Shown: piece by piece, positions 4,722-10,458 of the stretch
How the letters are laid out: every line of letters starts with the position of its first letter
Numbering within the stretch: position 1 is the first letter of the stretch
NCBI GenBank assembly: GCA_944331895.1
Contig: CALVIX010000003.1
Location: 1-64,000, forward strand
DNA length: 64,000 nt
Source: an uncultured Bacilli bacterium
GTDB taxonomy: Bacteria > Bacillota_I > Bacilli_A > RF39 > UBA660
Reading direction: 5' to 3'
The notes under the pieces: generated by a model
Database searches by the model: none
Told to the model about the DNA's origin: nothing
The model's input: the letters and a program-made list of their open reading frames with translations, nothing else
Made by a program: the position numbers and the translations under genes

Positions 4722-5888
4722 ATGGAATCAATTCAATTATCAACTCACTCATACTTAGAAACTTGTCTTGAATCTCACGGATATCAAACCCCTACATCTA
4801 TTCAAGCAAGTGTCATGCCTCTCATCCGCGAAAGACGAAACATTTTATTTCTCTCACCTACTGGTAGTGGAAAAACACTAGCCTATGTGATTCCTATCTT
4901 AGAATCAATCAATCTTAAAATCGAACAAACGCAAGCTCTCATTATCGTTCCCACGAGAGAACTAGCAATTCAGGTAAGAGAAACTGTTCGATCACTAGAA
5001 CCTGCAACAGGTGTCAAATGTAGTGTTCTATTCGGTGGAAGCAACCCAAAATCGCAAAAAGAAATTTTGAAAAAGCACGTACCAATCCTCGTCATCACTG
5101 CAGGAAAAGCAAGTGAGCTCATAAAAGCTAAGAAATTAAAGCTAGAATATCTTTCCTATCTTGTACTGGATGAAGCAGATCTTTTGACGGAGAAAAATTG
5201 TTATCGCGACTCTGAAAATATCGTAGCAGCACTATCATCTAATACACAAGTGATCTTGTGTTCCGCAACAAAGACACCTAAATTAGAAACATTCGCCCAA
5301 AACTTACAACTTAAAATAATAGAAACAGAAGAAAAGAAAAATGAAAATATTGAACAATCTTTTTATCAAGTAGAAGAAAAGGAAAAATACGATCGTCTAA
5401 AACAATTGCTAGAGAAAGAACAAGTTTTTCATGCACTTATCTTTGTTCAAACGAAAAACAAAGCTACCAAACTAGCGCAAAAATTAACAAATGATCATAT
5501 TCCTGCGATCGCTTTTCACCATGATCTCGAAAAAGAAAAGCGAAAAAAAATAGCACAAATGATATCGCAAAACCAACCTCTACTACTTGTCACGACAGAT
5601 ATTGCTGCACGCGGACTAGATATTCCTAATTTACCATACGTTATTCAATATGATGCAGCTAATTCTACTGAAACATATTTTCATCGTATCGGTCGTACAG
5701 GGCGAAAAAATAAGGGAAATAGTATCATCTTTTTAACAAAACAAGATGACAAACTAAAACGAGACATTGAATACAAGTATCAGACTAAGATAAAAAAGAA
5801 AAAGAAAATTGATAATGAAAAGGTAATAAAAAAGAAAAAGAAGAGAAAACATACGAAGAATATTGGAAAACCACACAAGAAAAAATAG
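4722..5888 (+). CDS. DEAD-box ATP-dependent RNA helicase
   Basis: RNA helicase that unwinds short duplexes in ribosome assembly or mRNA turnover. The 388-aa protein has the full motif set: the N-terminal Q-motif region (YQTPTSIQ), Walker A SPTGSGKT near residue 45, PTRELAIQ, VLDEAD near residue 150, CSAT, then in the second RecA fold TTDIAARGLD and HRIGRTGR. The tail of about 40 residues is strongly Lys-rich, as in CshA/DbpA-like helicases that grip RNA. ATG 4722 has GGAGG seven bases before it; an upstream in-frame ATG lacks a ribosome site. TGTTATAAT at 4688-4696 is a good extended -10. Its terminator is the left copy of the 28-bp repeat. Confidence 0.92.
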   Translation: MESIQLSTHSYLETCLESHGYQTPTSIQASVMPLIRERRNILFLSPTGSGKTLAYVIPILESINLKIEQTQALIIVPTRELAIQVRETVRSLEPATGVKCSVLFGGSNPKSQKEILKKHVPILVITAGKASELIKAKKLKLEYLSYLVLDEADLLTEKNCYRDSENIVAALSSNTQVILCSATKTPKLETFAQNLQLKIIETEEKKNENIEQSFYQVEEKEKYDRLKQLLEKEQVFHALIFVQTKNKATKLAQKLTNDHIPAIAFHHDLEKEKRKKIAQMISQNQPLLLVTTDIAARGLDIPNLPYVIQYDAANSTETYFHRIGRTGRKNKGNSIIFLTKQDDKLKRDIEYKYQTKIKKKKKIDNEKVIKKKKKRKHTKNIGKPHKKK

Positions 5889-5911
5889 AGACCTAGATCT
5901 CTATTTTTTTA
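5884..5911 (+). repeat. 28-bp direct repeat, left copy (terminator hairpin)
   Basis: ATAGAGA (5885-5891) pairs with TCTCTAT (5898-5904), then seven Ts: the terminator of the DEAD-box helicase gene. All 28 bases recur without mismatch at 8566-8593, on the other side of the UvrD-like gene. An A-run lies before this copy but not before the right copy. Confidence 0.9.
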
Positions 5912-5966
5912 CTGGTAGGATTTTAATTATAATTCTTCTACTTTTTACAATACTAAAATACAATTT

Positions 5967-8429
5967 TTATCCAATCTTCCTTTTGTAAGTACATCCGTTT
6001 TGGTAATAATTCGAACATCCAAAAAACTCGCCATATTTACTAATTTTTTTTCTCAATTGACCGCCACACACCGGACACTCAAATTGTTCTCTCTTCAGTT
6101 CGTGTTCATAATTTTGTTTGAGCTCTAGTGCAAATTCCGATTCTTGCCCATTGATAGTGACAATAAACGTTTTCTTCTTTGCTCTCGTTAGTGCTACATA
6201 AAATAATCGTCGTTCCTCTGCATAAGGATATTGTTCACAATGTTCAAGCAACAAATCTAAAATAGGAGCATCTTGAATTTTACTTGGAAATCCCATCTTT
6301 GATTTACGATTATTTATAATAAAAACATAGTCGGCTTGTAAGCCTTTCGCTTTATGCGCTGTCAAAAAAATTATATTCAGATCTGTCCGCATTTTTGATT
6401 TTACATCAATAAACCCCGTTATATTGTTATACTTACATGCAAATAATCCACTGTCGCTTAGAATCTTGTTATCAAACGAATATCTTCCAATAAAATATAC
6501 CGTACTTCCTTTAGGAAGATCATATAATTTTGCCGCCATAAATTTAATAACATTTTTATCAGTGTAGCCAGAAATTTCTCCAAGCGGAAATCCCTTAGTT
6601 TCAGATTTTCCTTGGATATTTTTTTTAATTTGCAGTGGATTCTGCATTATAAAATTACTACTTATTTCCGCCATCTTCTGCGAAAATCGATATGTAGTTT
6701 CTATTTTACTAATTTCTGTTTCACCCCAATATTTTGAAAAATTAAGAATAAATCCAATATCACTACCTGTAAAGCGATATATACTTTGCCAGTCATCTCC
6801 CACACAAAAAAGCTCATAATCCTTTGATTTTCGTAAACTATCTAATAGAGAAAAATTAGCTTTTGATATATCTTGATATTCATCAACTATTACATATTTA
6901 TACGGATTAGTGTATTTCCCTTGACGTACATATTCAGAAGCCAGATTAATCATATCATTAAAATCAATCTCATTGTTTGTTGTAAGATATTGACAATATG
7001 CATTAAAAATCGGTTCTAATAACAAAAGGATAATTTTATTTGTGTATACATTATCTCTATTATAATTAAGTTTTTGAACTGTTGATATATCATATCCATT
7101 ACTTTTAATAAGGTTGATCAACGTTTCAAACAATTCAGCAAGACTTTCTAGTAAAAAATCCTCTTTATCATTAACTTGAGCCCACAGTTCTTTAGCGGGT
7201 CTTGGTTTCAAAATTACAGATGAATCTTTAAGTTTTTTTGTCAATGAATTAAGCAGATTTCCTTCACTTTTTTCATATGCATAACACTCGATCATTTTTG
7301 TTTTATATTTTCGATGGATAGTACGCTTCCACTTCATAGATGCTCGATATGCTTCTGTAGCAGTCTTTCCATTTGCTGAACTAAAATACGATGGGACTTC
7401 ACCCTTTTCATTAATACCAAAATATTCTATATATATTTTGTAATCTGGCAGATAAAAATCAGGATGATATTGTCCATACGCTTCTGTTCTCACATCAAAT
7501 TCATAAGGTGCTTCATAAATATATCGAATACCATTTTGCATTAAAAAATTAGCAATGTCCATTTCTCCGTAACTTTTTACAATCTCGTGTTGAATTGTAG
7601 TAGGTGGGTTCATCTTAAGATATTCGTCATATTCTTTCTGCGATGCAAAATCAAATTCAGATTTAGCTACCACACGATTATATAACAAATAAGAATTCAA
7701 TAAATCGAGGTATTCATCAGATTGCATATTAATCACAAGTTGTTTTTTAATAAATTCACGTAAAGAAATTTGCGTAATCTTTGGCATTGTCCCGTTAACT
7801 TCAGAAATAATATTTAATCCAAGCTTATGAAATGTACAAATTGCAATATTACATTCGGTCTCAATAGCAATTCTTTCTTTCATCTCTGTTGTTGTGGCCC
7901 GTGTAAAAGATATGACTAAAATATCTTGCGGAAGATATTTTAGCTTCTTTAATAAATATTTTATTTTTCCGATGATAATGGTTGTTTTTCCTGTCCCTGC
8001 ACCAGCTATGATTAAATGATTATGTGCTTCTTTTACGATACAAGTCATTTGTTGTTTGTCTAATTCTTTTCCACTAATATTACCAATAAGAGAATATGCC
8101 TCCTCAATTACTTTCTCATTGTGTTGATAAATTTGGTGGGGCATCAATCGAGCTGAATTAAATAGTTCGGCCTGTTTTAAACATAGTGATTGATATTGAG
8201 CAGTTTTTTTCAATCGCTTTATTTTTTTCGCTTTGGATTCATCTAAAACAATGTTATGTCGTTTATTCCATATTTTTTCAACATTTGGATTAATGAGGCC
8301 TGATGTAGAAAATATTGAATCTCTATCAAACAAGGCAATATCAATATACGAAATCCATCGATTACAGATTTCCTCTTTTTCTTGGCACTTCTTTCGATAT
8401 AATTTAATAAACTTTTGAACAATTCCCAT
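5967..8429 (-). CDS. UvrD/HelD-like superfamily 1 helicase with internal nuclease-like domain and zinc finger
   Basis: Predicted DNA helicase of about 820 aa. Walker A AGAGTGKT lies near residue 144, SFTRATT (motif Ia) near 175, VIVDEYQD (motif II) near 514, VGDDWQSIYRFTG (motif III) near 544, TAHKAKG (motif V) near 692 and FYVALTRAKK (motif VI) near 745. Between the two halves of the first RecA fold sits an insertion with HPDFYLPDYKIYIEYFG (about 322-338), which reads like the PD-(D/E)XK core of VSR/DUF559-type endonucleases. The C-terminus ends in a four-Cys topoisomerase-type zinc finger (CPVCGG...CSNYYQNGC). ATG 8429 follows GGGAG and is preferred to the one four codons upstream. Flanked by the 28-bp repeats, this gene looks inserted. 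Cellular role unknown; repair or defence are possible. Confidence 0.83.
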   Translation of the reverse strand: MGIVQKFIKLYRKKCQEKEEICNRWISYIDIALFDRDSIFSTSGLINPNVEKIWNKRHNIVLDESKAKKIKRLKKTAQYQSLCLKQAELFNSARLMPHQIYQHNEKVIEEAYSLIGNISGKELDKQQMTCIVKEAHNHLIIAGAGTGKTTIIIGKIKYLLKKLKYLPQDILVISFTRATTTEMKERIAIETECNIAICTFHKLGLNIISEVNGTMPKITQISLREFIKKQLVINMQSDEYLDLLNSYLLYNRVVAKSEFDFASQKEYDEYLKMNPPTTIQHEIVKSYGEMDIANFLMQNGIRYIYEAPYEFDVRTEAYGQYHPDFYLPDYKIYIEYFGINEKGEVPSYFSSANGKTATEAYRASMKWKRTIHRKYKTKMIECYAYEKSEGNLLNSLTKKLKDSSVILKPRPAKELWAQVNDKEDFLLESLAELFETLINLIKSNGYDISTVQKLNYNRDNVYTNKIILLLLEPIFNAYCQYLTTNNEIDFNDMINLASEYVRQGKYTNPYKYVIVDEYQDISKANFSLLDSLRKSKDYELFCVGDDWQSIYRFTGSDIGFILNFSKYWGETEISKIETTYRFSQKMAEISSNFIMQNPLQIKKNIQGKSETKGFPLGEISGYTDKNVIKFMAAKLYDLPKGSTVYFIGRYSFDNKILSDSGLFACKYNNITGFIDVKSKMRTDLNIIFLTAHKAKGLQADYVFIINNRKSKMGFPSKIQDAPILDLLLEHCEQYPYAEERRLFYVALTRAKKKTFIVTINGQESEFALELKQNYEHELKREQFECPVCGGQLRKKISKYGEFFGCSNYYQNGCTYKRKIG

Positions 8430-8565
8430 ATTTTCTCCCATTCTATTCTTACGTCATAACATAGGGTATCGACTCTAAAAGCAATGACACTTCAGAAATA
8501 ATATTGAACTTACATTTTGTTTTATTTTAGATCTCACTTTAAAATATCTCAATAACTATCTTATT

Positions 8566-8593
8566 AATAGAGACCTAGATCTCTATTTTTTTA
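8566..8593 (-). repeat. 28-bp direct repeat, right copy (terminator of gltX)
   Basis: Identical to 5884-5911. The gltX stop codon (8583-8585) lies inside it. On the minus strand the hairpin is followed only by TTAATAAG, so the poly-T tract expected of a terminator is missing here, whereas the left copy is flanked by both an A-run and a T-run. Confidence 0.9.
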
Positions 8594-10235
8594 GTCCATA
8601 TCTTTCCATCATGCGATCGCGTCCAAATAACTTCATAATATCATATAAATTTGGTGTCATCGATTTCGTTGTGAGCGCTACACGTAATACCATACTAATA
8701 TCTCCGATGTGTCCCTTATATTGATCTGGATTATTTTTGTATTCTTTCACTTCTCTTGCGTATCCAAATTCAGCAGCTAAATCTTTCATATGCCCAAACC
8801 AAGTTTGTTCATCCTCTTCCTCGCTATAGTACTTTTCCATGTAAGTAGATAAAATCGTTTCAATTTCTTTTGGATCTTTGATGTTTTGATATTCAAAATC
8901 TTCCTTATTTGGATGATATAATTCATCATACATATACCAAATTTGATTCTTGAGATCACTAAAACATGTGTAATCTTTTCTTGGTTTTTTCTTGTTTCTT
9001 TCGATATCAAAAATACCGATAGAATATTCTTTATACTTCTTTAAAAGATCTGCAAACTCACTATCGTATTCCTCTGCCCATGCAAGGCCTCTTTCATATA
9101 CTTCCTCTGCTTTTAATCGGCTGATAAAGTTTTTAGATAAATTTAAGATCTTTTCTAGATCGAATAATGATCCACTTGGACTAATTTTCTTGAAATCCAT
9201 TTTGAAATCATCGATTTTACCAGTTGGATTCGCATCTAACCAACCTTCGAAATTAGAGTTAGCAACCGTTGCTAAATAAAGTAAAATCGCTTCGTTTGGA
9301 ATTCCCTTTTCGTGATAATAACTTACTGCCATCTCTGGATCTTTTCTCTTGCTCAATTTACGACGCGCACCATTTTCTTCCTTCATCAAAGGCGAAATAT
9401 GAGCATATTTTGGAGCTTTGAATCCAAATACTTGGAATAACTGTAAATGAATTGGTGCCGAACTTACCCATTCATCTCCACGAATGACGTGTGTCGTGCG
9501 CATTAAATGGTCATCGACAAGATGCGCGAAATGATATGTTGGAAGACCATCCGACTTGATGATAACGATATCCATGTCATTTTCTGGCATCTCAATTTTA
9601 CCTTTAATCGCATCATTTAACACGATCTTTTTATTAAAATCACCAGGAGATTTCAAACGAATAATATATGGTGCCCCATTTTTTATTTTCTCTACTGCTT
9701 CTTCTTTGGTAAAGAAACGACTTTTTGCGAAATCCCCATAATATCCAATACGATCTTTGACAAGTTCTTGATGCTCGCGAATCTCTTTTAGTTCCTCTTC
9801 TGTTTCAAATGCTGGATATGCGAGGTCTTGTTCAATTAAATATTTTGCGAATGCTTGGTAGATATCTTTTCTCTTACTTTGAATATATGGACCGTATATT
9901 CCCTTTTCTTCTGTTTCATTTACGACACCTTCATCAAACGTAATTCCGAAGTTATTTAAATCACGTACGATACTTTCAATTCCATTTTCGACTTCACGTT
10001 TTTTATCAGTATCCTCAATTCTTAAGAAGAATACACCATCTGTTTGGCGTGCCATCTTTCTTTCGATAAATGCTGCATATAATGCCCCCATATGAACAAA
10101 TCCCGTTGGACTTGGTGCGTAACGTGTTACGATTGCTCCTTCTTTTAAATCGCGGTATGGATATTTCTTCTCATAGTAATCCATGTCATGTTCTACATTT
10201 GGTAATAAAAAATCTGCGTATTCTTTATTTGTCAT
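8583..10235 (-). CDS. gltX: glutamate--tRNA ligase
   Basis: Class I aminoacyl-tRNA synthetase that charges tRNA-Glu, and in many Firmicutes also tRNA-Gln for later amidation. The ATP-binding signature APSPTGFVHMGAL is near residue 50, with ThrGly-Phe-Val-His-Met standing for HIGH, and KLSKRKDPE is the KMSKS loop near residue 320. At 550 aa it is longer than the ~480-aa GltX of Bacillus and matches the larger clostridial-type form. The ATG at 10235 is preferred over the longer frame because AAGGAATGAG lies before it. Expression is governed by the T-box leader upstream. Its terminator is the right copy of the 28-bp repeat, whose T-run is degraded. Confidence 0.93.
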   Translation of the reverse strand: MTNKEYADFLLPNVEHDMDYYEKKYPYRDLKEGAIVTRYAPSPTGFVHMGALYAAFIERKMARQTDGVFFLRIEDTDKKREVENGIESIVRDLNNFGITFDEGVVNETEEKGIYGPYIQSKRKDIYQAFAKYLIEQDLAYPAFETEEELKEIREHQELVKDRIGYYGDFAKSRFFTKEEAVEKIKNGAPYIIRLKSPGDFNKKIVLNDAIKGKIEMPENDMDIVIIKSDGLPTYHFAHLVDDHLMRTTHVIRGDEWVSSAPIHLQLFQVFGFKAPKYAHISPLMKEENGARRKLSKRKDPEMAVSYYHEKGIPNEAILLYLATVANSNFEGWLDANPTGKIDDFKMDFKKISPSGSLFDLEKILNLSKNFISRLKAEEVYERGLAWAEEYDSEFADLLKKYKEYSIGIFDIERNKKKPRKDYTCFSDLKNQIWYMYDELYHPNKEDFEYQNIKDPKEIETILSTYMEKYYSEEEDEQTWFGHMKDLAAEFGYAREVKEYKNNPDQYKGHIGDISMVLRVALTTKSMTPNLYDIMKLFGRDRMMERYGLKK

Positions 10236-10254: not shown

Positions 10255-10458
10255 TAAAAAAGATTCATCTGTTAAGGACGAATCTTCGTGGTACCACCTT
10301 AGTTCTCTATTTATAAAATAGACTCAAATCCCTTAACGCGGGAAACGGAATCATCAACTCCAAAGTTTCTTCTCTATGTTCCTCGTACTTATTTTCACCA
10401 ACCATAAGCTCTCTATAACGATTTCGATAGATACTCCTCTTCTTCTTCGTCTTTTACA
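10255..10458 (-). promoter_or_regulatory. T-box riboswitch of gltX (tRNA-Glu sensor)
   Basis: On the minus strand the leader has the T-box AAGGTGGTACCACG (rc of 10287-10300) just before a terminator hairpin (AAGATTC/GAATCTT, 10260-10286) with a T-run. Upstream are the Stem I marks AGAGAGC and GGTTGGTGAAA, then a GAGGAA stretch where the specifier is expected; GAA or GAG fits Glu. Uncharged tRNA-Glu should stabilise the antiterminator and allow gltX transcription. Confidence 0.9.

Follow-up and report, generated by a model that had tools for sequence, protein, structure and literature searches.

The genome of an uncultured Bacilli bacterium (GTDB lineage RF39; UBA660) carries, in the window analyzed here (positions 1 to 64,000 of contig CALVIX010000003.1, assembly GCA_944331895.1), a gene for a UvrD-like helicase, located between a DEAD-box RNA helicase gene and gltX and bracketed by two identical 28 bp copies of a terminator sequence. 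The best explanation for this arrangement, to which we assign a probability of about 0.85, is the insertion of the helicase unit into a terminator hairpin, duplicated in the process as a target-site duplication. As for the agent, the balance tilts slightly towards an insertion sequence (IS) of the IS30 family, IS1630 type, of which the helicase gene would be the cargo and whose ends would have been lost later.

The duplicated terminator

The repeated sequence, AATAGAGACCTAGATCTCTATTTTTTTA, is found on the plus strand at 5884-5911 and at 8566-8593: the perfect duplication reported by the first-pass annotation, made from the sequence alone, is confirmed, with no mismatches between the copies and no occurrence in dinucleotide shuffles of the window. 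The same annotation had indicated that many copies across the genome would speak against an insertion; in the 1.12 Mb genome there is no third copy, even when up to 3 mismatches are allowed. Both neighbouring genes end within the repeat: the DEAD-box gene has its stop (TAG, 5886-5888) in the left copy, gltX (CTA on the plus strand, 8583-8585) in the right one. When the two flanks are joined, taking the DEAD-box side up to 5911 and the gltX side from 8594, two convergent genes are obtained, with stops 12 bp apart and one palindrome. This is exactly the layout, with a single bidirectional terminator, that had been proposed for the locus without the unit.

The palindrome of the left copy spans 5879-5910 and forms a 13 bp stem, with runs on both sides; the folding energies on the two strands are -12.4 and -12.1 kcal/mol (z scores -4.6 and -3.9). 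In the right copy an 8 bp stem is retained and the A-run is gone, so that no T-run is left on the gltX strand; folding agrees with the difference between the two copies that had been read from the letters. As the genome now stands, the left copy, a predicted terminator, would stop transcription of the DEAD-box gene and could do the same for the inserted gene. The right copy is probably a weaker terminator for gltX and, because its hairpin is not followed by a T-run, gltX transcription may read into the helicase gene.

Duplicated hairpins in the same genome

The genome was scanned for exact direct repeats longer than 18 bp, located within 30 kb of each other and containing one of 567 hairpins. 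After removal of coding repeats and tandem copies, three cases are left, reported in Table 1: one is the helicase locus (C3), the others are on C2 and C5. Each of the three loci duplicates its own, different hairpin, and in each the repeat begins at, or a few bases from, the stop codon of a gene. The bracketed genes are accessory ones: a prepilin-like gene, the helicase, and a group formed by OLD-like, HTH (helix-turn-helix), DUF4190 and IS30 genes. In 1.06 Mb of other loci, hairpin direct repeats are found only at IS30 elements, plus one Flavobacterium repeat; in 0.8 Mb of the relative G212, the only exact hairpin repeats are a cluster of parS-like sites.

The C5 unit, 3.58 kb long, follows a Spo0A-C gene and comprises a truncated OLD-like ATPase gene, an HTH gene, a DUF4190 gene and a transposase gene. 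The transposase belongs to the IS30 family according to NCBIfam (NF033563, 194 bits, with a cut-off of 80); in the genome search it is missed by the Pfam rve model. The terminal inverted repeats (TIRs) of the element are CTTAAATTAAAATTTCAACCGCACCA and CTTTTTTTAATATTTCAACCGCACCA; the right one is directly adjacent to the hairpin copy on that side. At the inner edge of the left hairpin copy stands CTTAAATTAA, identical to the 10 bases with which the IS left end begins; among 20,000 random positions there was no such match. Extended to all 26 bases, the similarity is weak (12 of 26, a value reached by 6.7% of random positions); the stub derives its weight from the position of the 10-base prefix, which stands at the exact boundary. 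The OLD gene beside it has lost its start, and the left TIR of the surviving IS is adjoined by a second hairpin. Most simply, C5 can be read as a composite IS-cargo-IS element, inserted in the Spo0A/orf81 terminator, from which the left IS has since been deleted. In four relatives rny adjoins orf81/pepM29 and the C5 unit is absent; in two of them, G001 and G141 (L328 and L330), one hairpin can be read between the convergent rny and orf81. The Spo0A-C gene is missing as well in these relatives, which makes them an imperfect empty site for C5.

Several other repeats found by the scan were excluded: C4:15449/16257 (25 bp), in or beside short open reading frames (ORFs) and with no stem of 7 or more; those on C8, which resemble tandem gene copies; and C1:44621 and C1:43327, which are coding repeats. 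A diverged pair of hairpins at C9:14887/15416 (L213; 26 of 28 bases identical, with similarity extending to about 40 bp), located next to a tRNA-like sequence, encloses a small ORF (about 97 amino acids): as a possible older case it is kept as a lead, and is not counted.

Two further observations concern the C2 locus. The prepilin-like gene is preceded, at C2:23030-23100 (L173), by promoter-like TTGACA and TATAAT boxes, separated by a 20-nt spacer that contains an 11-G tract; its promoter is a candidate for phase variation. In the relative G002, the uppP/ttcA-like slot holds a different ORF (about 190 amino acids) after a terminator (L302, about 795-1491, reversed strand), which makes the slot a possible hot spot for insertions.

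IS30 elements in related genera

Close homologues of the C5 transposase (67-84%) have been identified in further genera of the bacterial family. Among homologous IS30 elements of these genera, at 68-72% on the amino acid level, six are flanked by exact direct repeats of 26-32 bp, all of them hairpins, and in five of the six the TIR lies directly inside the duplication. The exception is a copy at L234:1347-2402, in which the left TIR lacks its outer part and the 27 bp hairpin duplication is intact. The ends of elements of this type are CYTAAATTRAAATYTCAACCGCACCA, with a TIR of about 26 bp (...TTTCAACCGCACCA). In five of the six cases the flanking genes converge: the left one, on the plus strand, stops where the duplication starts or close to it, and the right one, on the minus strand, stops 25-55 bp from the start of the duplication, so that the IS occupies the terminator lying between them. 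The DEAD-box/gltX locus, with both stops in the repeat, shows the same layout.

Similar habits are on record for other members of the family. IS1630, from Mycoplasma fermentans, targets and duplicates inverted repeats, according to the title of its description (PMC3317919, PMC7648426), and its duplications in strain M64 measure 16-26 bp (PMC3317919). ISMhom-1 of M. hominis, also of the IS30 type, enters at the 3' ends of genes, whose ORFs remain intact (PMC7648426). ISApl1, another IS30 family element, flanks mcr-1 in composites from which one or both IS copies have been lost by deletion, leaving ragged junctions (PMC5821093).

A model for the origin of the helicase locus

That the helicase unit was inserted at a hairpin is strongly supported, because the hairpin contains the stops of the two flanking genes, two more such loci are present in the genome, and IS30 elements of the bacterial family show the same habit. 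The first-pass annotation had proposed an insertion at the hairpin and left its mechanism open: its first part stands, and for the second there is now a good candidate among the options that it listed, an IS30/IS1630-type element, lost since.

In the model, a DNA unit would have inserted into a bidirectional terminator hairpin once common to the DEAD-box gene and gltX. The hairpin would have been duplicated at the insertion, each gene keeping its stop codon and a hairpin. The agent would be an IS30 family transposase of the IS1630 type, able to target and duplicate inverted repeats, and the helicase gene would have travelled as cargo, probably that of a composite IS-cargo-IS. Later loss of the IS copies would leave the cargo bracketed by the duplicated hairpin. 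At the right junction a few more bases, the A-run, would also have been lost: the right copy begins at the base equivalent to 5884, and the duplication may originally have measured about 32 bp, of which 4-5 disappeared together with the IS end. Composite elements seem indeed to decay in this genome, as ISApl1-mcr-1 did, since the C5 unit keeps a 10 bp stub of an IS end.

The locus resembles IS1630 and ISMhom-1, as far as the sources describe them, in its target, an inverted repeat or a gene 3' end; it shares the long hairpin duplication with the former and the intact ORFs with the latter. It differs from both in that a 2.65 kb helicase unit is bracketed, with no transposase or 27 bp TIR. It also resembles the double-deletion form of ISApl1-mcr-1-ISApl1 (Tn6330), where the cargo remains at the insertion site between ragged junctions (PMC5821093). 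Tn6330, in contrast, makes 2 bp duplications, and hairpin duplication does not figure in its description; for the helicase unit, loss of the IS copies, as well as their role in moving the unit, is what we infer from the surrounding evidence. When compared with an IS1630-type composite, the unit shows an exact hairpin duplication of appropriate size (28 bp, within about 16-32 bp) and a target hairpin at convergent gene ends. The TIR test failed, and for this reason the unit is regarded as a likely derivative and not classified as a composite member. The parts of the mechanism are known separately; accessory genes placed between duplicated bidirectional terminators are new, as far as the literature searched is concerned.

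Several points weigh against this model. Neither end of the helicase unit shows an IS30 end, a TIR or remains of a transposase, scores there being at random level; the TIR motif TTTCAACCGCACCA is absent from the unit, and no IS30 family transposase is encoded there, the helicase being the sole ORF. The first annotation had likewise seen neither transposase nor terminal inverted repeats. Since the prepilin unit also lacks IS ends, two of the three units bear no direct IS trace, and the only IS30 transposase in the genome is that of C5. The 28 bp duplication is off-centre with respect to its hairpin, most IS30 duplications being centred. The gltX context was inspected at the loci of 50 relatives, whose neighbourhoods are not conserved, and no empty site was found; the DEAD-box/gltX pair was not found elsewhere among the relatives examined. 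Finally, the window comes from a draft assembly, 83% complete.

Alternative explanations

Foreign DNA might have been captured at the hairpin with no transposase involved, a replication fork or a staggered break leading to illegitimate insertion, through template switching or through end joining with fill-in, and to the copying of the hairpin on both sides. We regard this as rather unlikely. The absence of IS traces from the helicase and prepilin units would fit such an event, as would the off-centre duplication and the movement of the helicase family among unrelated contexts. Break repair, however, predicts variable sizes and need not match hairpins, whereas the three duplications measure 25, 28 and 28 bp, in or at the edge of the 26-32 bp range of IS30, and affect the same type of target; hairpin duplications are otherwise nearly absent.

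Even less probable, in our opinion, is a site-specific integration, in which the 28 bp would be the core of an attachment (att) site, with 8 bp arms and a 6 bp spacer, used in trans by a recombinase of the tyrosine or serine type, and the helicase unit would be a small element integrated there. The palindrome does have the shape of a recombinase core, and attL and attR sites are common at gene 3' ends; but the unit contains no integrase, and the genome has only two putative tyrosine recombinases, of 305 and 326 amino acids, in number and size as for XerC/XerD (serine recombinases were not searched). Moreover, three different hairpins are duplicated at the three loci, which att recombination by one enzyme would not do. 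Homologous recombination or gene conversion is an equally poor candidate: the terminator of the helicase gene, brought along or gained afterwards, would already have been identical to that of the new neighbour, and recombination would require a donor with this hairpin. Local resemblance of terminators is possible in the family, as indicated by a stretch of 14 kb in G212 (C1:10015-24165, L254 on), where similar terminators (AAAAAGACTAG...CTAGTCTTT) are clustered, with 3-5 mismatches. In the genome under study, on the contrary, nothing else matches the repeat within 3 mismatches, and the homology between its copies stops exactly at 28 bp. Helicase homologues, inspected at 16 other loci, have no flanking repeats, except for one 14 bp match, and for the homologue in G001 homology at the DNA level is limited to the coding region.

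The helicase gene, its neighbours and other features

Coordinates are collected in Table 1. The unit between the two hairpins contains a single gene, on the minus strand. Pfam recognizes UvrD helicase domains in its product, and a Top1-type zinc ribbon slightly below cut-off. The best NCBIfam match is to DNA helicase IV (NF008276), with 338.8 bits, below the equivalog cut-off of 543: the protein is not assigned, therefore, to that equivalog. PADLOC matches it to the RTasHel and GajB models, through the common helicase core. Neither a GajA nor a reverse transcriptase gene adjoins it, the neighbours being the DEAD-box helicase gene and gltX, and assignment to Gabija (GajAB) was rejected, as the unit consists of one gene with no GajA beside it. 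The protein thus resembles DNA helicase IV (HelD, E. coli type) and GajB in its UvrD-type superfamily 1 (SF1) core and C-terminal zinc ribbon; it differs from the former by its score and by a nuclease-like insert, from the latter by the missing partner. The insert, residues ~263-343, matches a Holliday junction resolvase PHROG (8e-7), and phage endonuclease I in Pfam at an E value of 0.075 only; it may be a nuclease domain.

Table 1. Positions of the features around the helicase gene, and of the three duplicated hairpins found in the genome
Feature	Position	Strand	Remarks
DEAD-box RNA helicase gene, 388 aa	4722..5888	+	stop within left terminator copy
Left 28 bp copy, predicted bidirectional intrinsic terminator	5884..5911		serves the DEAD-box gene, and the inserted helicase gene from the opposite strand
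Unit regarded as inserted, 2,654 bp	5912..8565		no recognizable IS end on either side
Putative cargo gene, helicase IV/UvrD-like SF1 helicase, 824 aa	5967..8441	-	nuclease-like insert, C-terminal zinc ribbon
Region upstream of the cargo gene	8442..8565	-	promoter-like match, by consensus only
Right 28 bp copy	8566..8593		gltX stop inside; A-run lost
gltX (glutamate-tRNA ligase)	8583..10235	-	T-box leader upstream, 10271-10456
Duplicated hairpin, 28 bp	C2:23002/24082		uppP end; prepilin-like gene (PF07963) inside
Duplicated hairpin, 28 bp	C3:5884/8566		DEAD-box/gltX; UvrD-like helicase inside
Duplicated hairpin, 25 bp	C5:5853/9436		end of Spo0A-C gene; 3.58 kb unit inside

Homologues of the helicase with 54-62% identity are found in metagenome-assembled genomes labelled as Muribaculum, Oscillospiraceae, Acetatifactor, Fibrimonadaceae and Eubacteriaceae, labels which may include contaminants; within the bacterial family, a homologue at 68% is present in one genus (G001), in another context. 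A search of plasmid records produced no match. The helicase looks like a mobile accessory gene. Its codon use is at the 56th percentile among the large genes of the genome and gives no foreign mark; its GC content is mildly low (14th percentile). The promoter-like sequence upstream of it, TTGAGA-17-TAAAAT at 8552-8524, was recognized by consensus, and such matches are not in excess over shuffles. The neighbouring DEAD-box gene is itself rare in the bacterial family (5 of 58 genomes, 33-37% identity) and may also have been acquired.

Elsewhere in the genome, a CRISPR-like array with a 66 bp period is located at C4:8962-11250 (L188); several of its repeat-spacer units recur exactly, at an offset of 528 bp or 1056 bp.

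Implications

It is possible, and we suggest it tentatively, that hairpin-duplicating transposition of the IS30 type serves these small-genome Bacilli as a general means of placing accessory genes singly at terminators, such as those for the helicase, the prepilin and the OLD-type ATPase. If so, insertion would typically occur between convergent genes, breaking neither a gene nor the hairpin, and the IS copies would then be lost; orphan genes bracketed by hairpins would be a readable fossil of IS30-type transposition. Such a route would explain how a gene may be inserted between two facing genes, each of which keeps its stop codon and its hairpin, as well as the possible read-through from gltX into the new gene, where the right copy has lost its T-run. 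It would tie the gain of accessory genes to a known, little-studied habit of IS30 elements, the targeting and duplication of terminator hairpins. What such events leave behind, a gene with one and the same terminator on both sides, is a simple signature, which may be searched for in any genome as a trace of past insertions, even where the transposase is gone.

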